Origin: Flavisolibacter longurius
Lineage (GTDB): Bacteria > Bacteroidota > Bacteroidia > Chitinophagales > Chitinophagaceae
Direction of reading: 5' to 3'
Assembly (NCBI GenBank): GCA_014163555.1
Contig: JACJGO010000003.1
Coordinates: forward strand, 248,001 to 312,000
DNA length: 64,000 nt
A program made the position numbers and the translations under genes. Positions 7,043 through 51,504 of the stretch are shown piece by piece; position 1 is the first letter of the stretch; each line of letters opens with the position of its first letter. The notes under the pieces were generated by a model that was given only the letters and a program-made list of their open reading frames with translations, was not told where the DNA came from and did not search any database.

Positions 7043-7117
7043 GATTTTGCGGTTAGCTTTCTCGCCAAAGGGCAAAAAGAAAGTACACCGCTTTTAAGTA
7101 GTTTAGATGTTTACTAT

Positions 7118-8629: not shown

Positions 8630-8648
8630 CCAGCATAAAACAATCAAA

Positions 8649-9977: not shown

Positions 9978-9981
9978 TATG

Positions 9982-10018
9982 AAAAACTTACTGTCCATGA
10001 CGGGCAGTAAGTTTTTTT
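9982..10018 (+). terminator. Rho-independent terminator after xylA
   Basis: A 12-base perfect stem (AAAAACTTACTG paired with CAGTAAGTTTTT) with an 11-base loop runs into a T tract starting five bases after the xylA stop codon. Confidence 0.88.
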
Positions 10019-10082
10019 CCCCTTTCTTTATAAGCGAAGGCTTATTTTGTAGCCAAAACCATTTCATTTCTAAAGAACGCTT

Positions 10083-11786: not shown

Positions 11787-11809
11787 TCTTTTTTACACTA
11801 TCTATAAAG

Positions 11810-11838
11810 AAATACCGGTCCGGAAGGGCCGGTATTTT
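11810..11838 (+). terminator. Rho-independent terminator after SSS symporter
   Basis: The stem AAATACCGGTCC pairs with GGGCCGGTATTT (one G-T pair) around the loop GGAA and is followed by a T run, 23 bases after the symporter stop codon. Confidence 0.88.
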
Positions 11839-11939
11839 TGTTTCTGCAGGTGGCTAATATTGTATCAGCATTTGGTAAGCAAGAACACAGTTATCGAACC
11901 CGGAAGCCTTATTTTGCGGTTGATCTATTTTCATTTTTC

Positions 11940-14609: not shown

Positions 14610-14628
14610 AAACAAATAAGTGAGCTAT

Positions 14629-17600
14629 ATGAGAAAATGCCTACGCCTCAGGGTGCATTTGCTGCTGCTATTTGCACTCCTCTCGACTCTCGTCTTCGCA
14701 CAAAAACAAATTACCGGAACTGTTACAGATGACAAGCAATCTCCCTTGCAGGGAGCAACGGTTGCCGTAAAAGGAACAAAAACAGTAACCACAACCGATG
14801 CCACAGGACGCTTCACCTTATCGGTGCCCGCCAATGCAACCACATTGGTCGTGTCCTTTGTGGGTATGCAGCCGAAAGAGGTGCCTGTCGGGAATAATAC
14901 TGTCATGGCTGTTGCTTTAAGTTCTTCTGCCAACACCATGAGTGATGTGGTGGTCATTGGTTATGGCACCCGCAGAAGAGCCGAGGTAACCTCCTCCATT
15001 TCTTCTGTCAATGCCAAAGACATCAAGGACATGCCCGTTGCCAGCGTTGAGCAGGCACTCCAGGGTAAGGTAGCTGGTGTCACCATTACAAACAACAGCG
15101 GTCAACCCGGTGGTGGCGTTTCTGTTCGGGTACGCGGTATAACCACTGTGAACAACAATGAACCATTGTATATAGTAGATGGTGTGATGATCAACGGCGG
15201 TGGCAACAGCAGCAACTTCGCTTTCAATATGCTGGGTGGTGGCGGCGGCCAAACCGTGAACAGTTTTCTGGCTACATTAAACCCGAACGACATTGAATCA
15301 ATTGATGTATTGAAAGACGCATCCGCCCAGGCTATCTACGGTTCTATGGCGGCCAATGGCGTTGTGATCATTACGACGAAAAAAGGTAAAGTGGGAGAGG
15401 GTAAGATCAATTATGATGTTTACTACGGTACGCAAACAGCTCCCAAGAAGATCAAGATGATGGACCTTAAAGAGTTTGCCCGCTATCAGAATGAAGTTTC
15501 CCCGATCATAGGCACACAACCGGCAGCCGAATTTGCCAATCCGGATGTGCTGGGCCGCGGTACCGACTGGCAGGATGCTATTTTCCAGCGGGGCCGTGTG
15601 CAAAACCACCAGTTAAGTTTTTCCGGTGGCCAAAACAGAACAACCTATTATGTATCCGGTAACTACTTCGATCAGAAAGGTATCCTGATTGGTTCCGGCT
15701 TCAAGCGCTACTCCATGCGTTTTAACCTCGACCAGCAGGTGAAAACATGGTTCCGTGCCGGTATTTCCGTGAATGCTTCCAAGAGCCAGCAAAAGCTGAC
15801 GCTGGCCGACGAACAGGATGGTACTATCACACAGGCCTTGGTGCAAAGTCCGCTGATCCCGGTAAAGAACTTTGACGATACGTGGGGCGGACCCGGTACG
15901 TCGGTGGGTGGTGTGATTTACTACCAGGACAACCCGGTGGCAAAATCTGCCTTGCGTGATGTAAAAGTTGACCAGTCGCAAATGCTCGGCAACATTTATG
16001 GCGAGTTGCTTTTTGGCAAACACCTGACACTGCGCAATGAATTGGCCATTTCTTTTGGTCTGACACAGAACACGGCTTTGCAGCGTGCTGGCATGATCGG
16101 TAATACGGTTTACCAAAGCACACTGTTGGAAAACCGCAGCAACAATAACTGGTATGCCATCCGCAACTACCTGAACTATAACCAAACCTTTGGCGGCGAC
16201 CACCATGTATCGGCAACTGCCGGTCATGAAGCGTCTTCTTCCCGGTACGATTATATTCAGGGACAACGTTATAACCTTGCTACCAACGACCTGATTGCCC
16301 TCAATGCCGGTGATGCGGCCCAGCAGGTGCTGCAGGGTGGTAAAGGACACGGAGCGATGGAGTCTTATTTCTTCCGCGCCGGTTATACATACAGCAACCG
16401 TTATTCTGTTAATGCATCTTACCGTGCTGATAACTCGTCTACGTTTGGTCCTAACTTCAAATGGGGTTATTTCCCGGCTGTATCCGTTGGCTGGACCATC
16501 ACCAACGAAAGCTTTGCACAGGGCCTGAGAGGTTTGAACTTTGCCAAGCTTCGCGTAGGATACGGCGCTGTGGGTAACCAAACACCGCCTGCCGGTGCAC
16601 CCAATCCGCCGTACACAGCCGGTGTTCGGTTTACAACCAATGCTTTTGGTGCCGGTAACATTGTTTCCAATATTGCCAACCCCAACCTGAAATGGGAATC
16701 GGCTGTTACGCAGAACATTGGTCTTGACCTGAGCATCCTGAACCGGAAAGTTGATATCACAGTTGATGTGTATAAGAAAGTAACAAAGGACATGCTGATC
16801 TTCAGCTCTGCTCCTCGTTACACGGGTGTGGGCTCCAACTGGGACGATATCAAAGCGCCGATTGTAAACACAGGCCAGATGACCAACAAAGGAATCGACC
16901 TGTCAATCACAACGCATAACATTACCAAAGGATCTTTCAGCTGGAAAACAACCGGTATCTTCTCACACTACAAGAACAGGCTGGATAAGATGGTGAACGA
17001 TAACCTGGCCATTGATGGTAAGATCGTTTACGAAACCATCCTGGTAACGCATACTGTACAGGGACACCCAGTTGGTTCGTTCTTTGGACTGGTTACCGAT
17101 GGTCTTTACCGCACACAGGATGAACTGAACAAGAGCCTGCCGCAGTTTGGTTTGGCAGTAGAAGAAAAAGGTACCTGGCTGGGTGATATCCGCTTCAAGG
17201 ACATCAACAGCGATGGTGTGATTGATGCAAAGGATGTAACCTTTCTCGGCAATCCGCAACCGAAGTTTACATATGGTTTGACCAACGCATTCAACTACAA
17301 AGGATTTGATGCCTCTATCTTCCTGCAGGGAAGCTATGGTGCCAAAATCTTCAATTGGCTGCGTCGCAACCTAGAGGGTATGGAAAACCAGTTTTACAAC
17401 CAGATGGAAACGGTAAGCGACAGGTATTCTGCCAACAATACAGATGGAAGCCTGCCCCGCTTTACCCATCAGAATAAAAACAATACGGCTGTTTCCGACC
17501 GTTGGGTAGAAGATGGTTCTTACCTGCGCATTCAAAACGTATCCATTGGCTACAACCTGCCAAAAGAATGGATCCGGAAAGCCAGCCTGAACAATGTGCG

Positions 17601-17760
17601 CCTCTATGTATCCGGACAAAACCTGTACACCTTTACCAAGTACAAAGGGTACGATCCGGAGATCGGTGCTTTCAACAGAGGTATTTCGCTAATGAATGTG
17701 GACAACGGTCACTACCCGAACCCACGCAGCATCACCTTTGGCGCTAACGTAGAATTCTAA
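14629..17760 (+). CDS. SusC-like TonB-dependent outer-membrane transporter (mannan locus)
   Basis: Outer-membrane beta-barrel importer of oligosaccharides, 1043 residues from the ATG at 14629 (the GTG nine bases earlier is less likely because it would lengthen a normal signal peptide). Residues 1-24 are the signal peptide (ending VFA-Q). A carboxypeptidase-D-like regulatory domain (25-100, ITGTVTDDKQSPLQGATV) is followed by the plug (about 115-235) with DVVVIGYGTRRR, RVRGITTVNNNEPLYIVDG and a DIESIDVLKDASAQAIYGS box, then the barrel ending in NPRSITFGANVEF. There is no STN signalling domain, so it does not work through a FecI/FecR cascade. It is followed after 28 bases by its SusD partner. 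Mannan or glucomannan oligosaccharides are the probable cargo, from neighbouring GH26, GH130 and epimerase genes. Confidence 0.95.
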   Translation: MRKCLRLRVHLLLLFALLSTLVFAQKQITGTVTDDKQSPLQGATVAVKGTKTVTTTDATGRFTLSVPANATTLVVSFVGMQPKEVPVGNNTVMAVALSSSANTMSDVVVIGYGTRRRAEVTSSISSVNAKDIKDMPVASVEQALQGKVAGVTITNNSGQPGGGVSVRVRGITTVNNNEPLYIVDGVMINGGGNSSNFAFNMLGGGGGQTVNSFLATLNPNDIESIDVLKDASAQAIYGSMAANGVVIITTKKGKVGEGKINYDVYYGTQTAPKKIKMMDLKEFARYQNEVSPIIGTQPAAEFANPDVLGRGTDWQDAIFQRGRVQNHQLSFSGGQNRTTYYVSGNYFDQKGILIGSGFKRYSMRFNLDQQVKTWFRAGISVNASKSQQKLTLADEQDGTITQALVQSPLIPVKNFDDTWGGPGTSVGGVIYYQDNPVAKSALRDVKVDQSQMLGNIYGELLFGKHLTLRNELAISFGLTQNTALQRAGMIGNTVYQSTLLENRSNNNWYAIRNYLNYNQTFGGDHHVSATAGHEASSSRYDYIQGQRYNLATNDLIALNAGDAAQQVLQGGKGHGAMESYFFRAGYTYSNRYSVNASYRADNSSTFGPNFKWGYFPAVSVGWTITNESFAQGLRGLNFAKLRVGYGAVGNQTPPAGAPNPPYTAGVRFTTNAFGAGNIVSNIANPNLKWESAVTQNIGLDLSILNRKVDITVDVYKKVTKDMLIFSSAPRYTGVGSNWDDIKAPIVNTGQMTNKGIDLSITTHNITKGSFSWKTTGIFSHYKNRLDKMVNDNLAIDGKIVYETILVTHTVQGHPVGSFFGLVTDGLYRTQDELNKSLPQFGLAVEEKGTWLGDIRFKDINSDGVIDAKDVTFLGNPQPKFTYGLTNAFNYKGFDASIFLQGSYGAKIFNWLRRNLEGMENQFYNQMETVSDRYSANNTDGSLPRFTHQNKNNTAVSDRWVEDGSYLRIQNVSIGYNLPKEWIRKASLNNVRLYVSGQNLYTFTKYKGYDPEIGAFNRGISLMNVDNGHYPNPRSITFGANVEF

Positions 17761-17788
17761 TTGAAAACAGCTCCTAAAAAACACACGA

Positions 17789-19354
17789 ATGAAAAATAAA
17801 TTGCTATACGTACTGTTGTTTGCTGCCGCGGCAACAACAGCCTGTAAGAAAAGCTTTACCGACAGGCCGGCCCTGGCTGAGCCCACCGTGGATAACTATT
17901 ACAACAACGCCGAGCAGATAAAAGGTGCTACCGGAACCCTGTATGGCCTTCCCTGGTTTCCTTTCCTTGACAAGGGCATTGATTGTATTGGTGAGATTCG
18001 CAGCGGAAACGAGTTTACCTGGGATGGCCAGTATAGCTCCTTCCGCGATTTCACAACAACAGCAACAGATCCACGGCTTTCCGAAGCCTGGAGCGCCTTC
18101 TTTAAGGTTATCGGTTGGTCCAACATCATGATCAACACGTTTGAGCTGAAAAAAGAAAAAGGCGTAACCGGAGAGTTTATTGACGCCGGTATTGGTGAAG
18201 CCCGTTTTATGAGGGGAGTAGCCTACTTCTATGTAGCCCGTATCTGGGGTGATGCACCCATCATTACCGATCCGGGTGAGATGGCGCAAAAAGGTGACTT
18301 CTCTGTTCCTAGGCACCTGAAAAATGATGTTCTTCGTTTTGCGCTGGAAGATTTCAAAGCAGCAGAAGCAAGCTTACCGGAAAGCGATGTAAAAGGACGG
18401 GTAACAAAGTACACAGCCAAGGGCATGATGGCAAAACTCTATCTCTATCAGAAAGATTATGAGAATGCCAAAACCAAGGCGCTGGAAGTAATGAACTCCG
18501 GCCGGTACGACCTGTTCCCGGATTATGCCGGCTTGTTCAATACATCGAAGAACAACAACAACATTGAAACCATGTTTGCCCTGCAGCATGTGATCAGCGA
18601 TAGCTGGGGTACGCAAAACGACCTGCAGGCTTACCGTGCACCGGCCAATGCACTGAATACCGGTGATGGCTGGTCGGCCGTTATTCCTTCGCTGGACATT
18701 CTGGCGGAGTACGAGCCGAATGACAAGCGCCGTGCCGGTTCTGTTATGGAACATGGCTGGACAAAGTCTGACTGGAAGCCAAGTCGTACAGGTAACACGG
18801 CATTCAACAATTTTATGGCAAACGGTTACAAGTACGATACGGCCGCTGCCGCTCCATTGGGCCACAAAACATCTACCCGTTCCAACATTGCCAAATATGT
18901 GGTAGGTCCCGGTACAAATGGCGAGCCCGTACAGCAAATGAAAACAGAGATCAACACCTATATTCTGCGTTATGCCGATGTGTTGCTGATTTATGCAGAA
19001 GCTGTTCTGGCTGGCAATTCTTCTACCGCAGATGCCACCGCACTGGCTGCCCTGAACAAAGTGCGCAAGCGTGCAGGTTTGGGTGAAAAATCATCCTTTA
19101 CTATCGACGATATTCTGCACGAAAGAAGGGTAGAATTTGCCTTTGAAGGTGATTACTGGTTTGACTTAACAAGAATGGGTTATGCCAAGGCAAAACAAAT
19201 GATTGAAAAACAAAACCGTGGCTGGAAAAATGATGATGGCAGCATTACGGTGGTGAATCCAACCTTTGCCGAGAACCAAATGGTTCTGCCTATCCCGATC
19301 AGCGAAACCACGCAGAACCCCAAATTGCTGGAAGCTCCGGTTCCCTATTATTAA
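17789..19354 (+). CDS. SusD-like surface glycan-binding lipoprotein (mannan locus)
   Basis: RagB/SusD family lipoprotein of 521 residues that caps the SusC barrel and binds incoming oligosaccharide. The signal ends TTA-Cys19 followed by Lys-Lys. The N-terminal SusD-like part (about 20-230) carries EARFMRGVAYFYVARIWGDAP, and the C-terminal RagB part has INTYILRYADVLLIYAEAVL and DDILHERRVEFAFEGDYWFDLTRMG. It ends with the usual LPIPISE...NPKLLEAPVPYY. It lies 28 bases after susC and 29 before the TIG-domain lipoprotein, one operon. Mannan specificity is from context; aromatic residues for sugar stacking cannot be assigned without a structure. Confidence 0.95.
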   Translation: MKNKLLYVLLFAAAATTACKKSFTDRPALAEPTVDNYYNNAEQIKGATGTLYGLPWFPFLDKGIDCIGEIRSGNEFTWDGQYSSFRDFTTTATDPRLSEAWSAFFKVIGWSNIMINTFELKKEKGVTGEFIDAGIGEARFMRGVAYFYVARIWGDAPIITDPGEMAQKGDFSVPRHLKNDVLRFALEDFKAAEASLPESDVKGRVTKYTAKGMMAKLYLYQKDYENAKTKALEVMNSGRYDLFPDYAGLFNTSKNNNNIETMFALQHVISDSWGTQNDLQAYRAPANALNTGDGWSAVIPSLDILAEYEPNDKRRAGSVMEHGWTKSDWKPSRTGNTAFNNFMANGYKYDTAAAAPLGHKTSTRSNIAKYVVGPGTNGEPVQQMKTEINTYILRYADVLLIYAEAVLAGNSSTADATALAALNKVRKRAGLGEKSSFTIDDILHERRVEFAFEGDYWFDLTRMGYAKAKQMIEKQNRGWKNDDGSITVVNPTFAENQMVLPIPISETTQNPKLLEAPVPYY

Positions 19355-19383
19355 TTCCCATCACTAACGATTAATTCTGTAAA

Positions 19384-20460
19384 ATGAAAAAGAGTATAAA
19401 GCAAACGATATTGAGTTCTGTCCTCTTTGCAAGCGTTTGTGCCCTGGGCCTAACGGCGTGTAAAAAAGAACTGGATGGCAGCCCGGATTACAAAGCGGGC
19501 AATCCCACCGGCACCATCACACCCGGTGAGGCTCCCGGTGGAACTGTTCTTACGGTGTCAGGTTCCGGCCTGGGCCAGATGCGTTCCATTGTCTTTGAAA
19601 AAAACAATGTACCGGCCAACCTGCAGCCCAACCTGAACACCGAAACAGCGATTGTTTTCCGGGTGCCGGATACGGCGTTTGGCGGTCAGCAAAACATCAT
19701 CTTCACTAACGTGGAAGGACGTACGCTTTCCGTTCCGTTTAAGGTGATTGCGCTGCCCTCCGTTTCAGCCGTTTCAAACTACAACTACACGGGTGGCACA
19801 AACATTACGCTAACCGGTAACAACCTCGATGATGTTTCCAGCATTGTGTTCGACGGCACTACCGTTGCGCCAACCATTGTATCAAAAACACGCAAGGAAC
19901 TGGTCTTGCAAATGCCAACCGGTGCACTCACGGATGGCAAGCTGAAGATCACCAACGGATCCGGCACGATTGTGACGACCCAGTCTTTTGTGAATCTTGA
20001 CAATGCTTATCACATCTTCACAGAGGGCTACGGTGCCGGTTGGGCAGATGGTTCCTGGGAGCCGGCCTCTGTTTCCTCTACCGTTGCCAAAACCGGTACC
20101 AAATCGTTTGCGGCAGCTTATCCTGCCGGTGGCTGGAAAGCAGAGGGCTTTGCAAACTGGTGGCCTAGCGTGGATTATTCTGCCGATTACAAATACCTTT
20201 CGTTTTGGGTGAAAGGTGGCACGAAGGATCTGACCTTGTACCTGACCGCTAACACACGGGGTAGTGGATTTGGTAACAGTGATCAGACGGTGCCCATTAA
20301 CGTTCCGAAAAACGAGTGGACCTATTTCAAACTTCCGCTGTCCACGTTGGATTTGTGGAAAGGTGGTACAACACAGTTAAAGCAGCTCGGCTTCTGGACA
20401 AAAGGTCCGGATGGCGGGAATGAAACCATCCATTTTGATGATGTGATTCTCATAAAGTAG
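19384..20460 (+). CDS. IPT/TIG-domain surface glycan-binding lipoprotein (SGBP-B-like)
   Basis: Surface lipoprotein of 358 residues, third in the susCD transcript and the position of a second glycan-binding protein in Bacteroidota loci. The lipobox is LTA-Cys26 followed by Lys-Lys. Two immunoglobulin-like IPT/TIG domains follow (about 40-125, GEAPGGTVLTVSGSGLGQM; about 128-210, GGTNITLTGNNLDDVSSI). The C-terminal domain (about 212-358) is a beta-sandwich with AKTGTKSFAAAYP, YKYLSFWVKGG and ETIHFDDVILIK, resembling carbohydrate-binding modules. The expected role is holding mannan at the cell surface for GH26 digestion. The gene is followed by a terminator, so the enzyme genes downstream may need their own promoter or read-through. 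Confidence 0.87.
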   Translation: MKKSIKQTILSSVLFASVCALGLTACKKELDGSPDYKAGNPTGTITPGEAPGGTVLTVSGSGLGQMRSIVFEKNNVPANLQPNLNTETAIVFRVPDTAFGGQQNIIFTNVEGRTLSVPFKVIALPSVSAVSNYNYTGGTNITLTGNNLDDVSSIVFDGTTVAPTIVSKTRKELVLQMPTGALTDGKLKITNGSGTIVTTQSFVNLDNAYHIFTEGYGAGWADGSWEPASVSSTVAKTGTKSFAAAYPAGGWKAEGFANWWPSVDYSADYKYLSFWVKGGTKDLTLYLTANTRGSGFGNSDQTVPINVPKNEWTYFKLPLSTLDLWKGGTTQLKQLGFWTKGPDGGNETIHFDDVILIK

Positions 20461-20477
20461 CGTGTTCTTTTATTTTC

Positions 20478-20525
20478 TAGCCTGGTTCATTGCTGATTGT
20501 TGGCTGTGAGCCAGGCTATTTTTTT
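20478..20525 (+). terminator. Hairpin terminator between binding-protein genes and GH26 operon
   Basis: The 8-base stem TAGCCTGG pairs with CCAGGCTA across a 25-base loop and is followed by a T run, 17 bases after the lipoprotein stop. The large loop suggests partial termination that would favour susCD expression over the enzymes. Confidence 0.65.
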
Positions 20526-20571
20526 GCACTATTTTTCTGTAAAAGCATAATAAACGGTTAAAAGCCAATTG

Positions 20572-21702
20572 ATGCGATTCCCATTTGTTTTTTATCTCTC
20601 CTGTATTTCCTTTCTTTCGTTTGCTCAGGTACAGTCGTCGCCCATCGATGCAAACGCCACGGCCGAAACCAAAGCCCTTTTCCATAACCTGATGGAACTT
20701 TCCAAAAACCATACGCTATTTGGTCACCAGCACGCCACCGAATACGGCCATGGCTGGTCAGGAGAAGAGAACCGATCCGATGTGAAATCCGTTACGGGTT
20801 CGCACCCGGCAGTTATTGGCATCGACCTGATGGATTTTTCAGGTCAGCCTGCGCCTGCAATTCAGAAAGAAAAAGAACGGCTGCGGAAGATCGCTGCCGA
20901 TACATACAATCGTGGCGGTCTGATTACCATCGCGTGGCATTTTAATAACCCCGTTTCACCCGGCGGTTTTTACTGGAAGGATTCCGTTTCCAAACCTGCC
21001 GTCAAATACGTTATTCCCGGTGGCGAAGCGCACAATCAATACAAAGAAATCCTGCAGGGCATTGGCGAGTGGGCCCAAAGCACCAGGGGCAAAGACGGCA
21101 AACTGGTACCCATGATCTTTCGCCCGTTTCACGAATTTGACGGTGGCTGGTTCTGGTGGGGGGCGCCACACAATACAAAAGAAGAATTTATCAGCCTGTG
21201 GCGGTTTACGGTTAGCTATCTCCGTGATACCCTGGGCGTACGCAATTTCCTGTATGCATTTTCGCCGGATAACCGGTTTAATACGGAAGCAGCGTTTCTT
21301 GACCGCTATCCCGGTGATGCCTGGGTGGACATGGTGGGCATGGACAACTATGGCGACATGGGCCGTGATGGAAAGTATAACCTGGAGGCTGCCATCCGGA
21401 AGCTGAAGATCGTTTCTGATTATGCGATTAAAGCCAACAAACTGGCAGCGTTCACCGAAACAGGACTGGAGTCGATTCCAAACCCGTCCTGGTGGAACGA
21501 TGTTTTGCTGAAGGTGATGAAGAGGGATGGCATGCGCCTCGCCTATGTGTTGGTTTGGCGAAACGATCAGCACAGTCCTACCCACTATTATGCACCGTTT
21601 CCCGGCCATAGCAGTGTGCCCGATTTTATGAAGTTTTACAACGATCCCTACACCTTGTTTGAAAACGACCTGAAAAATATTTACCAGATCAACAGAAAAT
21701 AA
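20572..21702 (+). CDS. GH26 endo-beta-mannanase
   Basis: Family GH26 beta-mannanase, 376 residues from the ATG at 20572. The signal peptide is residues 1-18 (ending SFA-Q, not a lipobox), so it is periplasmic or secreted. The barrel shows TLFGHQHATEYGHGW, GGLITIAWHFNNP, the acid/base Glu188 in FRPFHEFDGGWFWWG, FLYAFSPDNRF, DMVGMDNYGD, and the nucleophile Glu296 in AFTETGLE. In Bacteroidota such enzymes commonly release mannobiose from mannan, which matches the epimerase and GH130 phosphorylase downstream. It lies 17 bases before the sodium symporter gene. A few GH26 members are xylanases or lichenases, but the neighbours argue for mannan. Confidence 0.94.
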   Translation: MRFPFVFYLSCISFLSFAQVQSSPIDANATAETKALFHNLMELSKNHTLFGHQHATEYGHGWSGEENRSDVKSVTGSHPAVIGIDLMDFSGQPAPAIQKEKERLRKIAADTYNRGGLITIAWHFNNPVSPGGFYWKDSVSKPAVKYVIPGGEAHNQYKEILQGIGEWAQSTRGKDGKLVPMIFRPFHEFDGGWFWWGAPHNTKEEFISLWRFTVSYLRDTLGVRNFLYAFSPDNRFNTEAAFLDRYPGDAWVDMVGMDNYGDMGRDGKYNLEAAIRKLKIVSDYAIKANKLAAFTETGLESIPNPSWWNDVLLKVMKRDGMRLAYVLVWRNDQHSPTHYYAPFPGHSSVPDFMKFYNDPYTLFENDLKNIYQINRK

Positions 21703-21719
21703 GACGACCGTCCATTTAC

Positions 21720-23609
21720 ATGCGCTTACAGCTTATCGATATTGCCTTTATTGTCATGTACCTGGCCATGATGGTCATGATAGGCTGGTATTACCGCAAA
21801 AAGGCAAGGCAAAACAAGGAAAGCTACCTGCTCGGCGGAAAAAAACTGCCCTGGTACATGCTGGGTCTCAGCGATGCTTCCGACATGTTTGACATCAGCG
21901 GGACGATGTGGATGGTGGCGCTTTGTTTTGTGTATGGTTTTAAAAGCATCTGGATACCCTGGTTGTGGCCCGTATTCAACCAGGTGTTCAACATGATGTA
22001 CCTGAGCAAATGGCTACGCCGTTCCAATGCAAGCACAGGGGCCGAATGGCTGGCTACCCGGTTTGGGCTGAGCGGTAAAGGTGTAACGGCATCGCACAAC
22101 GTAGTGGTAGCTTTTGCCCTAATCGGTTGCCTGGGATTCCTGGCCTATGGCTTTGTTGGCCTCGGAAAATTTATTGAAATTTTTATACCCTGGAACCTGG
22201 TGCAGCCTTATGTACCGTTTACCATAGCACCGGAATACGTGGCCCATTTTTATGGGATCGTGTTCACGCTTTTTGCTATGTTCTATTCCATCCTTGGTGG
22301 TATGCACAGCATCGTGGTGGGTGATTTTATAAAGTACACCATCATGACTGTAGGCTGCATTGCCATTGGTGTGATTGCCTTTATCAATGTGCAGGGCAAA
22401 TCACTGGCCGTACCGGTGAACTGGGCCGATCCGTTTTTTGGCTGGAACCTGGACCTGAACTGGTCGGGTATCATCGAAGATGTCAACAGAAAAATAGAAG
22501 AAGACAGTTTTAGTCCCTGGGGCTTTTTCTTTATGATGATGTTGTTCAAAGGTGTGCTGGCAAGCCTTGCGGGGCCGGCACCCAATTACGACATGCAAAA
22601 GATTCTCTCCACCCGTTCTCCGAAAGAAGCCTCCAAGATGACGGGATTTGTGTCCATCATTTTATTGCCCATCCGGTACACGATGGTGATTGGTATGACG
22701 GTGCTCGCATTGTTGTATTTTGAACAGCTCAATGTAACCAACGGAACCGGTGGTACCGATTTCGAACGCATCCTTCCGGCCGCCATCAATGCTTTTTTGC
22801 CGACAGGTATTTTAGGATTGGTTCTTACCGGTTTGCTGGGCGCCTTTATGGGCACATTTTCCGGTACGCTGAATGCGGCGCAGGCCTATATTGTCAACGA
22901 CATCTACCTCAAATATGTTAACCCCAATGCTTCCACCCGCAAGATCATTTCCATGAATTATCTCGTGGGTGTACTGGTGGTGGCTACCGGGATTGTGCTT
23001 GGCTTTTTTGCAAAAGATGTGAACAGCATTTTGCAATGGATTGTAGGAGCCCTGTACGGCGGTTATATCGCCGCCAACATGCTCAAATGGTATTGGTGGC
23101 GCTTTAATGCGGCCGGATTTTTCTGGGGGATGATGGCGGGCATTGTGGCCGCACTTGTCTTCCCATTCATTTTCACCGGGCTTCCGTTGTACAACTGGCC
23201 GCTGCTTTTTCTGATCTCGGTAGTGGGTTGCCTGGTGGGAACCTATACGGCACCGCCAACCGACAGCGCTGTATTGAAATCATTTTACAAAATCGTTCGG
23301 CCTTGGGGTTTCTGGAATCCGGTTCGTGATGAGGTAATGGCGGAAGACCCGTCATTCCAACCAAACAGGCGTTTCCGGCTGGATATGTTTAACGTGGTAC
23401 TGGGGATCATCGCCCAGTGCTGTTTAACCATCCTGCCCATGTACCTGGTATTGTGGATGAAACTTCCCTTGCTCATAACCGTTATCCTTCTCGTGATTAT
23501 CGTTCTGATCCTGAAAAAAACCTGGTGGAACCGGTTGGACGAAGGGGAGGAACAACCTATCAAACAGCCGCAAGGCGATAAAACAAAAGAACATGAGTTT
23601 AGCATTTGA
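21720..23609 (+). CDS. Sodium/solute symporter (SSS family), probable mannobiose transporter
   Basis: Inner-membrane sodium-coupled symporter of 629 residues with about 14 hydrophobic segments. Family motifs include [20 protein letters not shown] after helix 1, [19 protein letters not shown] (sodium-site region), [20 protein letters not shown] and [20 protein letters not shown]. The C-terminus is a charged cytoplasmic tail. It lies between the GH26 mannanase and the GH130 phosphorylase and overlaps the latter by 17 bases, so the three are translated together. The likely cargo is mannobiose or a short manno-oligosaccharide, needed because epimerase and phosphorylase are cytoplasmic. It is clearly distinct from the SSS protein beside xylA. 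Confidence 0.88.
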
Positions 23610-24813
23610 CAAACGATTGCAGGCATTGAAAACCGCCCAGGCAGCCTTGCTCTTCCGGAAAAATGCAAAAGTCCCGCTGGGCAATGGCGTGTATGATCGT
23701 TACCAGTATCCTGTTCTCACCGCACAGCATGCGCCAATTTCCTGGCGGTATGATCTGGACCCGGCGACCAACCCGCATCTCATGGAGCGGTTTGGCATCA
23801 ATGCCACATTTAACGCCGGTGCTATAAAACGCAATGACAAATATTACCTGATCGCAAGAGTGGAAGGCGCTGACCGCAAATCGTTTTTTGCTGTGGCGGA
23901 AAGTCCCAACGGTATTGACAACTTCCGCTTTTGGGATTATCCTGTTCAATTGCCGCAAACCGAAGAGCCGGATACCAATGTGTACGATATGCGGCTGGTG
24001 CAACACGAAGACGGGTGGATCTATGGCCTGTTTTGTACCGAACGGAAAGATCCGGCTGCACCGGTAGGAGATGAGTCTTCGGCCATTGCGCAGTGCGGGA
24101 TTGTTCGCACCCGTGACTTGCTTCACTGGGAGCGGCTGGCCGACCTGAAAACACCTTCACCGCAGCAGCGAAACGTGGTGCTGCACCCGGAATTTGTGCA
24201 GGGTAAATATGCCTTTTACACCCGTCCGCAGGATGGCTTTATCAATACCGGGAGGGGCGGCGGCATTGGCTTTGGCCTGAGTGCCTGTATCGAGTGCGCT
24301 GTCATTGAAGAGGAAGTTGTAATTGATCCGAAACAGTATCATACTGTATATGAAGCCAAGAATGGCCTGGGGCCTGCACCCATCAAAACACGCAAAGGCT
24401 GGCTGCACCTGGCGCATGGGGTGCGAAATACGGCTGCTGGTCTCCGTTACACACTTTATCTTTTTATGACCGATCTACAGGACCTCACGAAAGTCATTTA
24501 TAAACCGGCGGGTTATTTTATGGCGCCGGAAGGGGATGAAAGAGTGGGTGATGTGTCAAATGTATTGTTCAGCAATGGCTGGATACTGGATGATGACGGA
24601 ACGGTTTTGATTTACTATGCATCCTCCGACACCAGAATGCATGTGGCTACGTCAACTGTAGAGCGCCTGATGGATTATTGTATGCATACCGCCGCCGATG
24701 GGTTCACTTCAGCCAGTTCTGTAGCCACGCTGGTTTCTCTCATTGATAAAAACAAACAATTGTATCCTGCGCCTATAAGAGAAGCCAGTCTTTCGCCCAG
24801 CAATGTAGATTAA
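23593..24813 (+). CDS. GH130 4-O-beta-D-mannosyl-D-glucose phosphorylase
   Basis: Cytoplasmic phosphorylase that splits mannosyl-beta-1,4-glucose with phosphate to mannose-1-phosphate and glucose. The 406-residue five-bladed propeller shows GH130 subfamily 1 features: [40 protein letters not shown], the catalytic acid Asp132 in [32 protein letters not shown], and [14 protein letters not shown]. The start overlaps the symporter stop by 17 bases and the epimerase gene follows after 35 bases. This GH26-symporter-GH130-epimerase order is the known mannan catabolic module of Bacteroidota. GH130 subfamily 2 (mannobiose or chitobiose phosphorylase) is less likely given the adjacent epimerase. Confidence 0.93.
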
Positions 24814-24848
24814 GTCCTATTGAAAGAGTAAAAGCCATTTTTTGGAAT

Positions 24849-26084
24849 ATGAAGATCAACCTGCAACAATACCGACAGGAAGCCGCCACGGAACTGGAGA
24901 ACATCCTGCACTATTGGATGGCGCATACGGTTGATGAAATGAATGGCGGTTTTGTTGGACGAATCGATCATCAGAACATTGTACATGCCGACGCACCCAA
25001 AGGCTCGGTGCTGAACAGCCGTATCCTGTGGAGTTTTTCTGCCGCGTATTCACTTACGGGACAAGAAGAATACCGCAGCATGGCAGAGCGGGCATTCGAT
25101 TACATGGTTGCGCATTTTTTTGACCTCCACTTTGGCGGTGTTTACTGGACTGTAGATCCTTTGGGAAAACCTCTGGATACGAAAAAACAAATCTATGCCC
25201 AAGCCTTTGCCATCTATGGCGCCAGTGAATATTTTCTGGCCACCGGCGATGAAAAGGGCAAAGCCCTGGCGCAACAGCTGTATTACGACATTGTCAAATT
25301 CAGTTATGATGTCAAACACGGCGGCTATATAGAAGCCCTTTCGCGAAACTGGCAGGGGCTGGACGACCTGCGGTTAAGTGACAAAGACGCCAACGAACCC
25401 AAGTCCATGAATACGCACCTGCACCTGCTGGAGGGGTTTGCCAACCTGTACCGCATTTGGCCGGATGAAGACCTGAAAGAACGGATCGAGGAACTGATAG
25501 CCATTTTCCTGGATCATATCATTGGCACCGATAATCATTTAATCTTATTTTTTACGGATGACTGGAAGCCACGATCCAACCTAATATCCTATGGGCACGA
25601 CATTGAAGCAGCCTGGTTGATCCAAGAAGCGGCCGAAAGAATTGGCAATGAAGACCTGCTTGCACAAGTGAAGAAAAGATCGGTTTTGGTGGCGCAGGCT
25701 GCAGCGGAAGGCTTGGACAAGGATGGCGGATTATGGTATGAATACGACAAAACCACTAATCACCTGGTTCGGCAAAAACACTGGTGGCCGCAGGCAGAAG
25801 CTGTAGTTGGTTTTCTGTATGCATGGCAGATCAGCGGGGATGAAAAATTCCTTCAGCAGTCGTGGCAAAGCTGGAAATTTATTCAGGATTACATATTGGA
25901 TAAATCAGGTGGTGAATGGGTTTGGGGTGTCAAAGACGATTATTCAGTAATGTCCGAAGAAGACAAAGTGGGTCTGTGGAAATGTCCTTATCACAACAGC
26001 CGTGCCTGTATGGAAGTAGAGCGACGCCTGTCAACAATTGCTGATTACAGTACGGCAGGCAGTGCCAATCATGCAAATCAGTAA
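24849..26084 (+). CDS. Cellobiose/mannobiose 2-epimerase
   Basis: Cytoplasmic (alpha/alpha)6-barrel epimerase of the N-acylglucosamine 2-epimerase superfamily, 411 residues. It converts the reducing-end sugar of beta-1,4-disaccharides, here mannobiose to mannosyl-glucose, the GH130 substrate. Conserved stretches include MNGGFVGRIDHQN, KGSVLNSRILWSFSAAY, GGVYWTVDPLGKPLDTKKQ, EPKSMNTHLHLLEGFANLYR, SYGHDIEAAWLIQEAA (a catalytic His lies in this region in the family), and KHWWPQAEAVVGF. No signal peptide. It sits between GH130 (gap 35 bases) and the PD40 protein gene (gap 10). With GH9 downstream, cellobiose from glucomannan could also be a substrate. Confidence 0.94.
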   Translation: MKINLQQYRQEAATELENILHYWMAHTVDEMNGGFVGRIDHQNIVHADAPKGSVLNSRILWSFSAAYSLTGQEEYRSMAERAFDYMVAHFFDLHFGGVYWTVDPLGKPLDTKKQIYAQAFAIYGASEYFLATGDEKGKALAQQLYYDIVKFSYDVKHGGYIEALSRNWQGLDDLRLSDKDANEPKSMNTHLHLLEGFANLYRIWPDEDLKERIEELIAIFLDHIIGTDNHLILFFTDDWKPRSNLISYGHDIEAAWLIQEAAERIGNEDLLAQVKKRSVLVAQAAAEGLDKDGGLWYEYDKTTNHLVRQKHWWPQAEAVVGFLYAWQISGDEKFLQQSWQSWKFIQDYILDKSGGEWVWGVKDDYSVMSEEDKVGLWKCPYHNSRACMEVERRLSTIADYSTAGSANHANQ

Positions 26085-26094
26085 ACACGGCATC

Positions 26095-27606
26095 ATGAAA
26101 AATTTCATTTACAAAATCCTTGCAGTCTTTTTTTGCTGCAGCTATTTTTCGTTTATGACAATCGCACAAAACACAGGCATTTTTGAAGGGGGAAACGATA
26201 TCGGGCCCGTGTTGCACAAAGGAAGCGTTGTCTTTGACAAGCGCAACGGCGAGTACCAGATTTCTGGCTCCGGCGCCAACATCTGGGGTACACAGGATGA
26301 GGCCCATATTGCCTGGCGGAAGTTGAAAGGCAACTTTATTCTGCAGGCGAGGGCACGGTTTGTAGGCGATGGTGTTGATCCGCATCGCAAGCTGGGATGG
26401 ATGATCCGCACTTCGCTGGCGCCGGATGCTGCTTCTGTCAATACAGCCATACACGGCGATGGACTGGCTTCCCTGCAATATCGAAAAGAGACTGGTTCTG
26501 CACTGGAGGAATTAAAGTTTGACAGCAAAGCGCCGGATGTCATACAACTGGAGCGCCGCGGCAATACCTTTCTGATGTCGGTTGCAAGCTTTGGTGAACC
26601 TTACCAGGTAAAAGAAGTTTCCAACATTACGTTGGGCGACAGCGTGTATGTGGGACTATATGTTTGTGCCCATAACAAAGATGTGGTGGAAAAGGCCATA
26701 TTCGACAATGTGCGGATCGTGGTTCCGGTAAAAGAAGGCTTCCAACCTTACCGTGAATACATTGGCAGCAGCCTTGAAATTTTTGACATGGCTTCAGGGA
26801 AACGCCGCGTGGTGTACAGCGAACTGGCTTCGCTGCAGGCACCCAACTGGACACTGGATGGAAAGGCGCTTTTGTATAATAAAGACGGATTGATCTACCG
26901 CTTCGATCTGCAAACAAAAACAGTATCAACCATCCCAACGGGAGACGTCAAAAACAACAACAACGACCACGTAATATCCTTTGATGGCACCATGCTTGGA
27001 TTGAGTTCGACCAGTCCGGATCGGAAATACAATTCGGTGGTGTATACCGTTCCCATCTCCGGCGGCATTCCAAAGCAGATCACACCCATCGGCCCTTCGT
27101 ATTTGCATGGATGGTCGCCGGATGGGAAGTGGCTGACCTATACGGCGCAACGGGATGGTGATTTCAATATTTATAAAATCCCTTCCGGCGGCGGCGAAGA
27201 GATCCGCCTCACCACTACTCCCGGACTGGATGACGGGCCTGAATACAGTCCGGATGGGGCCTATATTTATTACAATTCGGTGCGAAGTGGTTCCATGCAG
27301 ATCTGGCGCATGAAACCCGATGGCACCGGCCACGAACAATTGACCAGTGATGGTTTTCATAACTGGTTTCCGCATCCTTCACCGGACGGTAAAACCCTCG
27401 TCTTTTTAAGTTTTCAGCAGGATGTAAAATCGGACGACCATCCGTTTTACAAGCATGTTTACCTGCGTACCATGCCTATCAGTGGCGGACAACCGAAAGT
27501 GGTGGTTTATCTCTATGGTGGACAGGGTTCAATCAATACGCCTTCTTGGTCGCCTGACAGTAAACAATTTGCTTTTGTCTCCAACTCTGATTTATTGTTG
27601 GAATAA
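26095..27606 (+). CDS. Secreted LamG-like plus PD40 (TolB-type) beta-propeller protein
   Basis: Exported protein of 503 residues from the ATG at 26095, which gives a proper signal peptide (cleavage near Gln24); the longer form to 26038 overlaps the epimerase gene. Residues 35-205 look like a concanavalin/DUF1349-type beta-sandwich (EDEAH-like, RKLGWMIRTSLAP, VYVGLYVCAHN). Residues 215-503 form PD40 blades: GWSPDGKWLTYTAQRDG, EYSPDGAYIYYNSVRSG, HPSPDGKTLVFLSF, SWSPDSKQFAFVSN. The fold resembles the TolB propeller, but it is not TolB or TolR. It is translated 10 bases after the epimerase and 10 before GH9, so it belongs to the mannan operon. The function is unknown; binding or presenting a glycan in the periplasm fits the fold and place. 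Confidence 0.8.
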   Translation: MKNFIYKILAVFFCCSYFSFMTIAQNTGIFEGGNDIGPVLHKGSVVFDKRNGEYQISGSGANIWGTQDEAHIAWRKLKGNFILQARARFVGDGVDPHRKLGWMIRTSLAPDAASVNTAIHGDGLASLQYRKETGSALEELKFDSKAPDVIQLERRGNTFLMSVASFGEPYQVKEVSNITLGDSVYVGLYVCAHNKDVVEKAIFDNVRIVVPVKEGFQPYREYIGSSLEIFDMASGKRRVVYSELASLQAPNWTLDGKALLYNKDGLIYRFDLQTKTVSTIPTGDVKNNNNDHVISFDGTMLGLSSTSPDRKYNSVVYTVPISGGIPKQITPIGPSYLHGWSPDGKWLTYTAQRDGDFNIYKIPSGGGEEIRLTTTPGLDDGPEYSPDGAYIYYNSVRSGSMQIWRMKPDGTGHEQLTSDGFHNWFPHPSPDGKTLVFLSFQQDVKSDDHPFYKHVYLRTMPISGGQPKVVVYLYGGQGSINTPSWSPDSKQFAFVSNSDLLLE

Positions 27607-27616
27607 ATAACATGAA

Positions 27617-29368
27617 ATGATGGGAAGAAAAGAATCTGTACTGCTCCTTGGAACACTATTCTCGGGAATCGCATTTGCACAAAACGGCAGCGATCGCATT
27701 CAATTGAACCAGGTCGGCTTTTACCCGGCTGCGCCTAAACTGGCGGTGATCACAGGCAAAACAAGCGCTACGAAATTTTCAGTAACCTCTCTGGATGGCC
27801 GCACCACGTTTTACAGCGGCACCCTCTCGGGAGAAAAGCAATCCAAAAATTCTTCTACCGTTACCAAAACGGCTGATTTCAGTGCTTTCAAAAAGATTGG
27901 ACAGTATGTCATCACAGTTCCGGAAATGGGCACGTCGTATCCATTCACCATTGCGGCCAGCGTTCATGCCGATGCTGCCGAAGCGGTGTTGAAAGCATTT
28001 TATTTTATCCGCTCCAATATGCCGCTGGAAGAAAGGTATGCCGGCCAGTGGGCACGACCTGCCGGTCACCCCGACACGGAGGTGGTCGTACACCCATCGG
28101 CAGCGTCGGATACCCGTCCTGCAGGTATGGTGCTCTCTTCACCCGGTGGCTGGTATGATGCCGGTGATTACAACAAGTACATCGTTAACTCCGGCATTAC
28201 CATGGGAACCTTGTTCGCAGCCTACGAGGATTTTCCGCAATATTTCAAACAACATAAAGTTGCCATACCTGAAAGCAACAATGCTGTGCCGGATATTCTG
28301 GATGAAGCGGTGTACAACCTGCGGTGGATGCTCACCATGCAAGAGCCTTCCGATGGTGGTGTGTATCACAAACTGACCAACGCTGATTTTGATGGCATGG
28401 TAATGCCGGGAGTGACAAAAGCACCCCGTTACCTGGTGCAAAAGGGAACTGCGGCAACGCTGGATTTTGCCGCGGTAACAGCGCAGGCGGCCCGTATCCT
28501 AAAAGCTTATGTGGCGCAGTTTCCGGGGCTTGCCGACAGTTGTTTGAGGGCTTCGGAAAAGGCCTGGCAATGGGCACAGAAGAATCCATCCGTGATATAC
28601 AGTCAACGGGAGATGGCCCCGAAATTTGACCCGGATATAACCACCGGCGAATACGGCGACAGGAACTATAGGGACGAATGGTTGTGGGCGGCAGCAGAAC
28701 TGTTCGTAACCACGGGGAAAACAACCTACCTGGATATTGTCAAAGAACGTATGTCCGGCCCCGTAAGCCTGCCCTCCTGGGCCAATGTGGGCATGCTGGG
28801 TTATTTTACCCTGATCCGTGCGGAAAGGAGCTTGTCTAATCAGGCAAAACCAGTGGTGGCGGCAATGAAGGACAGCGTTCTGAAAATTGCATCTACTTAT
28901 CTTTCTAACCAGCCTTCAAGTGCTTTTTCTACCATAATGGGACAAACAGCAAAGGATTTTAGCTGGGGCGGAAGTTCGGTTGCCGCCAACCAGGGCATCT
29001 TACTCCTGTATGCCTATAAACTGACAAAGAACAAAGCCTACCTGCACGGCGCTTTGTCCAACCTCGATTACCTGCTGGGACGTAACGCCACCGGCTATTC
29101 GTTTATTACTGGCCTGGGAAGCAAACGGGTGATGCATCCCCACCACCGGCCTTCCGAAGCGGATGGAATTGTTGACCCTGTACCGGGGTTGCTGTCGGGC
29201 GGTCCCAACCCGGGAATGCAGGACAAATGCACGTATCCTTCTTCCGAACCTGAACTGGCCTTTGTGGATGATGTCTGTTCCTATGCATCCAACGAGATTG
29301 CCATCAACTGGCAGGCACCGATGGTGTACCTGGCCGGCGCCATGGAAGCATTAAAAAAAGACCTGTAA
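27617..29368 (+). CDS. GH9 endo-beta-1,4-glucanase
   Basis: Family GH9 cellulase-type enzyme, 583 residues, with a signal peptide (ending AFA-Q at about residue 22). The N-terminal Ig-like CelD_N domain (25-115, IQLNQVGFYPAAPKLAVI) precedes the (alpha/alpha)6 catalytic domain (about 120-580). Catalytic motifs are GGWYDAGDYNKYIVNSG (the Asp pair), HPHHRPSEADG, and DDVCSYASNEIAINWQAP with the Glu general acid. It is the last gene of the mannan operon, 10 bases after the PD40 protein. A beta-glucanase here suggests that the true substrate is glucomannan, where both mannose and glucose links must be cut. The cellulose alternative is weak since no cellulose-binding module is present. Confidence 0.93.
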   Translation: MMGRKESVLLLGTLFSGIAFAQNGSDRIQLNQVGFYPAAPKLAVITGKTSATKFSVTSLDGRTTFYSGTLSGEKQSKNSSTVTKTADFSAFKKIGQYVITVPEMGTSYPFTIAASVHADAAEAVLKAFYFIRSNMPLEERYAGQWARPAGHPDTEVVVHPSAASDTRPAGMVLSSPGGWYDAGDYNKYIVNSGITMGTLFAAYEDFPQYFKQHKVAIPESNNAVPDILDEAVYNLRWMLTMQEPSDGGVYHKLTNADFDGMVMPGVTKAPRYLVQKGTAATLDFAAVTAQAARILKAYVAQFPGLADSCLRASEKAWQWAQKNPSVIYSQREMAPKFDPDITTGEYGDRNYRDEWLWAAAELFVTTGKTTYLDIVKERMSGPVSLPSWANVGMLGYFTLIRAERSLSNQAKPVVAAMKDSVLKIASTYLSNQPSSAFSTIMGQTAKDFSWGGSSVAANQGILLLYAYKLTKNKAYLHGALSNLDYLLGRNATGYSFITGLGSKRVMHPHHRPSEADGIVDPVPGLLSGGPNPGMQDKCTYPSSEPELAFVDDVCSYASNEIAINWQAPMVYLAGAMEALKKDL

Positions 29369-29463
29369 TCAGGCGAAAACGAAAGTACATTTTTAGTATG
29401 TTAATAATCCGGCTGGAAAGGGTTCACATACCGAAGCCGTTTTATCTTAGCGCAAATTCCTCC

Positions 29464-29895
29464 ATGAAAAAAGTTATTGTATTCTCCTTTTCGCTATTGG
29501 CCTTTTTCGCTACAGGATTTTCCCAAAACCCAATTAATTGGACCAAAGAGCAATTGCTGGAGCCGGCGGTTCTGGCCCAAAAGATCCAGGCCAAAAAAGA
29601 CCTGCCTACGCTTATTTCCGTAGGACCCGGGGCTACCATTCCCAACTCAATCCATGTGGGCATGACCAATGATGCAACGAACCTGGCCAGCCTGAAAACG
29701 AAATTGCGGGCATTGCCAAAAGAGTCGCCGGTGGTGATTTATTGCGGGTGCTGCCCGTTTGAAAATTGTCCGAATGTGCGTCCGGCCATTGCGGCACTGC
29801 AGGAATTAAAGTTTGCCAACTACAAGTTGCTCAATATTCCCCGGAACATGAAAGCGGATTGGATTGATAAAGGTTATCCCGTGGCGAAACCGTAA
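29464..29895 (+). CDS. Exported rhodanese-like domain protein
   Basis: A 143-residue protein with a signal peptide (ATG at 29464, residues 1-20, ending GFS-Q) and a single rhodanese fold. The motif LISVGPGATIPNSIHVG is the usual ..DVR..GEIPGA.. block in altered form, and the active-loop position reads VVIYCGCCPFENCPN. Rhodaneses move sulfane sulfur on a loop Cys. Here the loop is richer in Cys than normal (four within twelve residues), which could suit metal binding or redox work in the periplasm. It stands alone behind the mannan operon and before a terminator. No partner suggests a pathway. Confidence 0.75.
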   Translation: MKKVIVFSFSLLAFFATGFSQNPINWTKEQLLEPAVLAQKIQAKKDLPTLISVGPGATIPNSIHVGMTNDATNLASLKTKLRALPKESPVVIYCGCCPFENCPNVRPAIAALQELKFANYKLLNIPRNMKADWIDKGYPVAKP

Positions 29896-29910
29896 TCTTA
29901 TTCAGGATAG

Positions 29911-29946
29911 AAAAAGGGAAATTGCGCAGGCGGTTTCCCTTTTTTA
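29911..29946 (+). terminator. Rho-independent terminator after rhodanese-like gene
   Basis: The stem AAAAAGGGAAA pairs with TTTCCCTTTTT around a 12-base loop and is followed by Ts, 15 bases after the stop codon. Confidence 0.85.
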
Positions 29947-29951
29947 ATTTT

Positions 29952-29959
29952 TACATTTG
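29952..29959 (+). promoter_or_regulatory. Possible -7 promoter element for the oxidoreductase gene
   Basis: TACATTTG fits the Bacteroidota TAnnTTTG consensus exactly and lies 16 bases before the ATG at 29976, right behind a terminator. No convincing -33 element was seen. Confidence 0.3.
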
Positions 29960-29975
29960 GCTTTTTGCTTACACT

Positions 29976-31025
29976 ATGCAACCGATCAATACCGCCATAC
30001 TTTCCTTCGGCATGTCCGGAAAATTGTTCCATGCCCCCTTCCTGCACCTACACGAAGGATTCCTTTTTTATGCCGTGCTGGAACGCAGCAAGAACCTTGC
30101 AGAAGAAATCTACCCGGAGGTAAAAACATACCGGAACCTGGAAAGCCTACTGGCCGACGATACCATTGAACTGGTGATTGTCAACACACCTAACTATACG
30201 CACTACGACTACGCCAAAAAGGCGCTGGAAGCCGGCAAGCATGTGATTGTGGAGAAGCCGTTTGTGGTTAATGCTTCGGAAGGAGAGGAACTCCTTGCGC
30301 TGGCGGAGAAGAAAGGGCTCTTGCTTTCCCCTTATCAAAACCGTCGCTGGGACAGTGACTTTCTCACGGTAAAAAAGATCGTGGAAGAAGACTGGCTGGG
30401 TGCGATCGTGGAAGCCGAATTTCATTTCGACCGCTATAAACAAGAGCTGAGTCCCAAACAGCACAAAGAAATGCCCGGTCCCGGCACCGGTGCCTTATAT
30501 GATTTGGGTGCCCACATCATTGACCAGGCTTTGCTCTTGTTTGGTGAGCCGGAAGCCGTGTTTGGAGACATCCGCATTGTTCGTCCCATCTCCCAGGTGG
30601 ATGATTATTTTGAAGTGCTGCTGTACTATCCAAAATTGCGGGTACGCCTGCACGGTAGTTACCTGGTGCGGGAGCCGCTGCCTTCCTATATCCTGCATGG
30701 TGCCAGGGGCTCTTTCCTGAAATGGCGGGCCGATGTGCAGGAAGCGGCCCTGCTGGAAGGCAATCCACCCGGCACACCGGATTGGGGGGTGGAACCGGTA
30801 ACCGAACGAGGCTTGCTGCATACCGAAAGGGAAGGAGCCGTGATCCGCGAAACCGTGCCTACATCACAGGGCAATTACATGCACTATTTCGATGGGATAT
30901 ATGAAGCGGTGCGGAACGGGGCAGCTCTGCCCGTCACCGGTCGGCAGGCGATCAATACCATCCGTGTTATTGAAGCCGCTTTTCGCAGCAGCGAAACAAA
31001 AAGCGTGGTGGCCTTCAGCCGGTAA
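29976..31025 (+). CDS. Gfo/Idh/MocA-family oxidoreductase
   Basis: Cytoplasmic NAD(P)-dependent oxidoreductase of 349 residues (ATG at 29976; the longer form to 29922 starts inside the terminator). The N-terminal Rossmann domain (about 1-120) has ILSFGMSGKLFHAPFL, a variant of the GxGxxG loop seen in the YdgJ/inositol-dehydrogenase-like branch, and the conserved Lys of VEKPF. The C-terminal alpha/beta domain includes GALYDLGAHIIDQALLLFG with the usual Asp and His. Substrates of this branch are sugars or cyclitols, often scyllo-inositol, but none can be assigned here. It is a monocistron between two terminators. Confidence 0.88.
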   Translation: MQPINTAILSFGMSGKLFHAPFLHLHEGFLFYAVLERSKNLAEEIYPEVKTYRNLESLLADDTIELVIVNTPNYTHYDYAKKALEAGKHVIVEKPFVVNASEGEELLALAEKKGLLLSPYQNRRWDSDFLTVKKIVEEDWLGAIVEAEFHFDRYKQELSPKQHKEMPGPGTGALYDLGAHIIDQALLLFGEPEAVFGDIRIVRPISQVDDYFEVLLYYPKLRVRLHGSYLVREPLPSYILHGARGSFLKWRADVQEAALLEGNPPGTPDWGVEPVTERGLLHTEREGAVIRETVPTSQGNYMHYFDGIYEAVRNGAALPVTGRQAINTIRVIEAAFRSSETKSVVAFSR

Positions 31026-51307: not shown

Positions 51308-51504
51308 ATTGAAAAGTTGGTTTTAGGTAAGGAAGTGTTGTTTGTATTCTGCCTGTATTGGCTGTTCAAGATTACAACGAAGTTTTTTATCTGCGAGCAA
51401 ACGAGTAAAGATTTCTTTTTCGTTCCTGTTTTTTTCTGAAAATCACGCCGCTGAACTTGAGCGGAAAAAACTATATTGTGTAGTCTAATTGAAAAACGAG
51501 CTAT

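Follow-up and report, generated by a model that had tools for sequence, protein, structure and literature searches.

A PD40 propeller protein in a beta-mannan locus of Flavisolibacter longurius and the gene neighbourhoods of its family

In the mannan pathway of Bacteroides, a glycoside hydrolase of family 26 (GH26) cuts mannan, the SusC/SusD pair serves its import, and mannobiose 2-epimerase together with the GH130 mannosylglucose phosphorylase turns mannobiose into mannose 1-phosphate and glucose. A locus with these genes lies in the stretch of DNA analysed here (hereafter the window), which comprises 64,000 nucleotides of Flavisolibacter longurius (contig JACJGO010000003.1, positions 248,001 to 312,000). 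The locus carries two further genes at its 3' end, one for a protein with PD40 repeats and one for a GH9 endoglucanase-type enzyme. The PD40 protein is the subject of the present work. The initial annotation of this DNA gave it no known function in such loci, and no function was found for it in the family libraries and the literature searched, the latter with subscription papers mostly outside its coverage.

Another group of described systems comprises routes through 3-keto-glycosides, namely LacABC with DUF1080 (PMC9007349), the AtOGE operon (PMC10628242) and the levoglucosan pathway (PMC7676230). In the available parts of these sources the routes employ an oxidoreductase, a TIM-barrel "sugar phosphate isomerase" and DUF1080, and the same gene types are found beside relatives of the PD40 protein; those parts mention no propeller protein, and the operon of the window lacks the route enzymes that they describe. 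We give an even chance to the proposal that the PD40 protein represents a family of exported oligosaccharide-handling proteins which is often tied to 3-keto-glycoside breakdown and was repeatedly recruited into mannan/beta-glucan loci.

The mannan locus

The genes of the locus and its flanks are as follows.

13517–14401, minus strand: AraC-type regulator, divergent from the locus (Pfam HTH_18/HTH_AraC)
14620–17760, plus strand: SusC-type TonB-dependent transporter (TIGR04056 above cut-off)
17789–19354, plus strand: SusD-type protein (PF07980, PF14322)
19384–20460, plus strand: putative surface glycan-binding lipoprotein with a TIG domain (PF01833; lipobox-like LTAC in the sequence)
20572–21702, plus strand: GH26 beta-mannanase with a signal-peptide-like start (PF02156, E 1.3e-52; ATG at 20572, alternative TTG at 20569)
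21720–23609, plus strand: sodium:solute symporter (SSF; PF00474, E 1.7e-25)
23593–24813, plus strand: GH130 phosphorylase, likely a mannosylglucose phosphorylase to judge by its operon partners (PF04041)
24849–26084, plus strand: cellobiose/mannobiose 2-epimerase-like protein (GlcNAc_2-epim, PF07221; 383 bits on NCBIfam equivalog NF041848, under the cut-off of 800)
26095 (ATG)–27606, plus strand: PD40 protein with a signal-peptide-like start, a DUF1349-like sandwich (residues ~25–212) and a TolB-like propeller (~221–500) (PF07676, E 2.5e-28)
27617–29368, plus strand: GH9 endoglucanase-type enzyme with a CelD_N domain (PF00759, E 5.8e-87; PF02927)
29922–31025, plus strand: Gfo/Idh/MocA oxidoreductase, two genes past GH9 (NF008607 PRK11579, 300 bits, cut-off 330)

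The six genes from GH26 to GH9 form one run on the plus strand (20572–29368). Pfam matches and coordinates agree with the gene order given in the initial annotation, apart from the symporter gene, which was omitted there, and the PD40 gene is flanked by the 10-base gaps that it reported (26085–26094 and 27607–27616). The SusC, SusD and TIG-domain genes (14620–20460) stand upstream of GH26 and complete the locus. GH26, GH130, the 2-epimerase and the SusC/D pair are thereby found in one run, and assignment of the region as a beta-mannan/glucomannan utilisation locus, for which the set had been thought suitable, is well supported by gene content. Between GH9 and the Gfo/Idh gene lies an open reading frame (ORF) of 165 codons.

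The locus was compared with 19 GH130 loci (stretches of ~20 kb) from an order sample of 198 genomes. The combination of GH26, symporter, GH130 and epimerase is that of the Bacteroides-type pathway and recurs in 11 of the 19, whereas neither the PD40 protein nor GH9 is found in any of them. A mannan locus would have gained two more proteins at its 3' end, with GH9 as the probable enzyme for the glucan parts of the glucomannan chain. Promoter-like sites show no excess in the region 20400–30000 (13 versus 12.2 in shuffled sequences). Terminator-like sites number 18 versus 12.1 (standard deviation 4.3), one of them just within the PD40 gene at 26120–26141; neither the number nor this site was taken as evidence.

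Predicted folds of the PD40 protein

By inspection, the start of the PD40 protein resembles a signal peptide, and 72 of the 80 family ORFs have a hydrophobic 13-mer near the start. A model of the full protein built from 65 sequences has a mean predicted local distance difference test score (pLDDT) of 94.2. The structure nearest to the predicted propeller (residues 221–500) is PDB 2OJH, with VIA Z 43.6 and a root-mean-square deviation (rmsd) of 1.7 over 276 residues at 45% identity; the same chain is matched in the profile search with E 3.8e-95. This is a putative TolB of Agrobacterium tumefaciens (Atu1656), the function of which was not found in the literature searched. The propeller is common to both proteins, but the 297-residue chain of 2OJH is devoid of the N-terminal DUF1349-like domain. 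TolB proteins rank after 2OJH in the fold comparison (Z 27.4 and lower).

When modelled by itself (pLDDT 95.8), the N-terminal domain is predicted to be a concanavalin-type sandwich. Its nearest structures are 3MEP (VIA Z 19.8, rmsd 2.2 over 164 residues) and then 3O12 (Z 18.7), which we take to be DUF1349 proteins; they share the fold but are single-domain chains with 9% and 15% identity. Further matches with Z 15–17 are GH43 accessory domains, CBM66 and thrombospondin. Weak matches to Pfam DUF1349 (PF07081) were obtained for 41 of 59 homologues at E ≤1 (best 9.1e-6), and the protein of the window itself matches weakly, with 15.8 bits versus the cut-off of 32.4. The initial annotation had described the protein as secreted LamG/PD40. 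The PD40 propeller and the signal-peptide-like start stand, while the term LamG is imprecise because the structures nearest to the sandwich are DUF1349-like. A LamG domain was rejected: search of the N-terminal domains of the 59 homologues at E ≤1 gave 27 families, LamG is not among the 25 of these that were listed, and no LamG match appears in the whole-protein Pfam search at E ≤0.001. A relationship to DUF1080, the first guess for this domain, was discarded (hhalign probability 0.1 against five DUF1080 proteins). No solved chain was retrieved by sequence with the profile of this domain, and a designer PPR protein matched by a single sequence (E 5.9e-5) was put down to chance.

Many polar residues are invariant in the 65 aligned homologues: His97, Arg98, Lys99, His120, His193 and Glu199 in the N-terminal part and Asn289, Asn290, Asp291, His292, His338, Glu383, His427, His449, Gln477 and Asn481 in the propeller. 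Their conservation in both domains would suit ligand handling or catalysis.

The family is spread over Bacteroidota, Gemmatimonadota, Acidobacteriota, KSB1 and others. Search of the own genome with the PD40 protein gave 11 matches, among which that of the window is the sole full-length copy. The closest homologue in the order sample (L010 and L029, G182:C1:942344-943795; 64% identity) contains one in-frame stop codon, owing either to decay of the gene or to a sequencing error. A 213-residue protein of another genome (L047:9664-10305, G088) matches the N-terminal domain alone (query residues 15–208), has no propeller and gives no Pfam match at E ≤1e-5.

Gene neighbourhoods and possible role

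Neighbours were examined in the best 80 of at least 548 confirmed relatives obtained by a targeted scan of named genomes, so the counts describe the nearest homologues. Two of the loci, L090 and L128, gave no score but are still counted among the 80, so that 78 are scorable; gene calling followed the simple rule of taking the longest ORF, and the neighbour profiles were derived from the same 80 loci which they score. At least one gene of 3-keto type (TIM barrel, GMC oxidoreductase, its subunit, Gfo/Idh or DUF1080, the last counted with a broader profile) lies within three genes of the PD40 gene in 33 of the 80 loci. The commonest neighbour is a TIM-barrel protein (PF01261), found within three genes in 27 loci, at position +1 in 17 and at −1 in 6. 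It matches PDB 8TCT, 8TCD and 8TCS (E 1.8e-39 to 4.2e-35), which are presumably enzymes of a 3-keto-glycoside route; the neighbour is therefore a putative lyase. A twin-arginine-like RRx[FLIMV] motif is present near the N-terminus of 29 of 32 copies, as expected for Tat export. The Gluconate_2-dh3 subunit and the GMC oxidoreductase are within three genes in 18 and 17 loci, respectively. Further off stands a gene for a Gfo/Idh protein that resembles the glycoside 3-dehydrogenase model of BT_2158 (NF058561, E 2.3e-144, 481.6 bits, cut-off 750).

The same tendency is seen in the order sample combined with a phylum sample of 395 genomes, the genomes being partly common to both. Within flanks of ~1.5 kb, a TIM-barrel gene accompanies 7 of 38 full-length PD40 loci, a set that holds part of the phylum match places, versus none of 42 GH130 and none of 29 GH26 loci (Fisher p 4e-4, uncorrected for relatedness). 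In the order sample, the PD40 protein (E ≤1e-30) was found in 17 of 198 genomes, own included, in six by the propeller part only or mainly. Two of these six loci have the propeller between DUF1080 and Gfo/Idh, and a third has it between a Gfo/Idh and a TIM-barrel gene; these three adjoin a BT_2158-like dehydrogenase, two of them DUF1080 as well. Among the 19 GH130 loci of the order, L166 (a distant GH130 copy) has a TIM-barrel gene ~4 kb away and L160 has GMC with its subunit.

In F. longurius itself, contig C3 carries within ~11 kb of a 20-kb stretch, on both strands, genes for TIM-barrel, Gluconate_2-dh3, Gfo/Idh, GMC, Gfo/Idh, TIM-barrel and DUF1080; none of the 11 PD40 matches of the genome lies on this contig. 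Two more such genes are located in the window, outside the operon.

51505–52416, plus strand: TIM-barrel protein (AP_endonuc_2, PF01261; 54% identity to L094:11542-12453, a TIM-barrel neighbour of PD40)
53970–54683, plus strand: DUF1080 protein of the 3-keto-disaccharide hydrolase family (PF06439, E 1.4e-44)

The usual partners of the family therefore exist in the genome, though not in the operon.

The linkage to mannan genes was approached in two ways. Among the 80 nearest-homologue loci, GH26 is present in four, where the density in PD40-bearing genomes predicts ~0.16 GH26 genes for this amount of DNA. In L068 (Flavisolibacter nicotianae) the order is GH26, GH26, symporter, GH130, epimerase, PD40, GH31, a 580-residue protein and GH9, the last followed, as in the window, by relatives of the 165-codon ORF and of the Gfo/Idh gene. 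L072 is a GH26-linked locus of a Bacteroidota metagenome-assembled genome; in L093 (Spirosoma utsteinense) and L097 (Persicitalea jodogahamensis) PD40 follows GH26 immediately. In a tree of 76 sequences (65 of set A2 and 11 of set A1) the protein of the window groups with L068, and L072, L093 and L097 are placed apart from it. Because these three loci lie apart, the link to GH26 arose or was kept more than once. The GH26 label requires 4 changes on the tree versus a shuffled mean of 4.7, with 155 of 500 shuffles as low (55 rows bearing no label are omitted from the counts), and is thus not clustered; this fits separate recruitment without proving it. GH9 lies within three genes of PD40 in four of the 80 loci (L068, L079, L082 and L085), the GH9 piece being short in L079, at a contig end, and in L082.

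The other approach was a co-occurrence survey, set beforehand as the refuting test of the claim that the PD40 protein is an accessory factor of mannan loci. Matching places were compared side by side and scored as co-located when ≤30 kb apart on one contig; genes on separate contigs, some of them short (4.6 and 7.4 kb), counted as apart. Close GH130 (E ≤1e-60) occurs in 19 of the 198 order genomes; in the phylum sample the PD40 protein (E ≤1e-110), GH130 (E ≤1e-120) and GH26 (E ≤1e-60) occur in 43, 57 and 52 genomes, all counts including the own genome. The survey went against the claim: the genome of the window alone shows co-location, which for GH130 is seen in none of the 18 other genomes of the order and none of the 56 of the phylum, and for GH26 in none of 51. 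The nearest case outside the window has the genes ~49 kb apart (G443). Mannan loci do not as a rule include the PD40 protein. Genomes with the PD40 protein are nevertheless enriched in GH130 (21 of 43, 6.2 expected) and GH26 (18 of 43, 5.7 expected), values uncorrected for relatedness or lifestyle.

These results bear differently on the possible roles of the protein. A dedicated mannan- or glucomannan-binding accessory that binds through its concanavalin-type domain would account for the excess of GH26 in the neighbour set at four places of the tree, for the resemblance of the N-terminal fold to CBM66 and GH43 accessory domains, among others, and for the enrichment at genome level. The last may reflect lifestyle or relatedness, however, and co-location is confined to the window in both samples, so that a role of this kind, proposed in the initial annotation, keeps some weak support but is rather improbable; the commonest neighbours of the family point instead to 3-keto-glycoside breakdown. 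The invariant polar residues could alternatively form the active site of an undescribed exported enzyme, e.g. a lyase or hydrolase acting on 3-keto or beta-linked oligosaccharides, many neighbours being enzymes of one route. Consistent with this, the propeller profile partially matches PF14583 (PL22-type) proteins (probability 95.8 over 185 columns), and two oligogalacturonate lyases are matched weakly (3C5M, E 3e-4; 3PE7, E 0.0016). But the PL22 match may be generic because PD40 propellers match each other via their repeats, the search that found the two lyases gives TolB chains far higher scores, and PF14583 is absent from the Pfam matches of the protein at E ≤0.001, which makes such an enzyme unlikely. 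Quite unlikely is a TolB-like envelope protein or passenger gene without a role in sugar metabolism that came into the operon by chance. Some relatives do stand beside unrelated genes such as gyrase or histidine kinase, a 3-keto-type neighbour is lacking in 45 of the 78 scorable loci, and the model of the Tol-Pal TolB (TIGR02800) does match, but with 100.4 bits versus a cut-off of 343.15, and the neighbours of the family differ from those of random genes.

The proposal of an exported oligosaccharide-handling family is favoured by the tight same-strand packing of the operon, the 33 of 80 loci with 3-keto-type neighbours, the four-place linkage to GH26 and the gene set on contig C3. Several observations weigh against it. 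The same 45 loci lack such a neighbour within three genes, and among the 33 positive loci 17 look like one Mucilaginibacter-type cluster, the others coming from Chitinophagaceae, Saprospiraceae, Acidobacteriota and Gemmatimonadota. Four of the seven TIM-barrel-adjacent loci with short flanks belong to one genus (g117), and in longer stretches of the order sample TIM-barrel, subunit or GMC genes accompany only 3 of 12 full-length PD40 loci. The operon of the window itself contains no GMC, TIM-barrel or DUF1080 gene, and the Gfo/Idh protein downstream (29922–31025) reaches no more than 38 bits with NF058561, the model for glycoside 3-dehydrogenases, and by score belongs to another subtype.

If the PD40 protein belongs to such a family, it would most likely be periplasmic and would hold or present beta-linked oligosaccharides released by glycosidases; in many relatives this handling would serve enzymes of oxidation and elimination, which in F. 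longurius may be encoded elsewhere in the genome. Exported two-domain proteins of this kind would have been recruited several times into GH26 and GH9 loci. We regard the link of this uncharacterised family with 3-keto-glycoside breakdown as a better lead than a mannan factor. A stronger version, which we put forward as a long shot, is that PD40-DUF1349 proteins act, perhaps as enzymes, as undescribed exported components in oxidative 3-keto-glycoside breakdown. The insertion of one into this mannan operon would then mean that hydrolysis and phosphorolysis do not account for all cleavage of the mannan/glucan oligosaccharides, part of which would be degraded through oxidation and elimination. If the link to 3-keto-glycoside breakdown holds, a multi-phylum family recognised here only as PD40/TolB-like would gain a role in a non-hydrolytic route for glycans, to which the mannan loci of some Bacteroidota would be connected; if it does not, the PD40 gene is a passenger in a mannan locus that is otherwise ordinary. 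According to the available part of PMC11501099, deletion of BT2157 or BT2158 causes no growth defect on raffinose-family sugars, which calls for caution as to the importance of such genes for growth. The main text of a paper on marine mannan (PMC9860051) does not mention "PD40", "propeller" or "TolB".

Further observations

In L072 (8233-16185) the mannan set is followed by TIM-barrel, NIPSNAP and PD40 genes, a gene for a 724-residue protein with no Pfam match at E ≤1e-5, and a GH3-like gene. In L070 and L093, too, PD40 has a NIPSNAP-type gene beside it.

The TIM-barrel and DUF1080 genes of the window belong to a cluster at 50114–54683, ~21–25 kb past GH9, which also contains genes for a Gfo/Idh oxidoreductase and an aldehyde dehydrogenase. 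Upstream of the locus (5270–13352) a run of genes codes for a GH10 xylanase, an FGGY carbohydrate kinase, a 442-residue PF01261 protein, a symporter and a SASA-type acetylesterase. This GH10/SASA run directly precedes the mannan locus, and xylan-type and mannan genes are therefore placed side by side.

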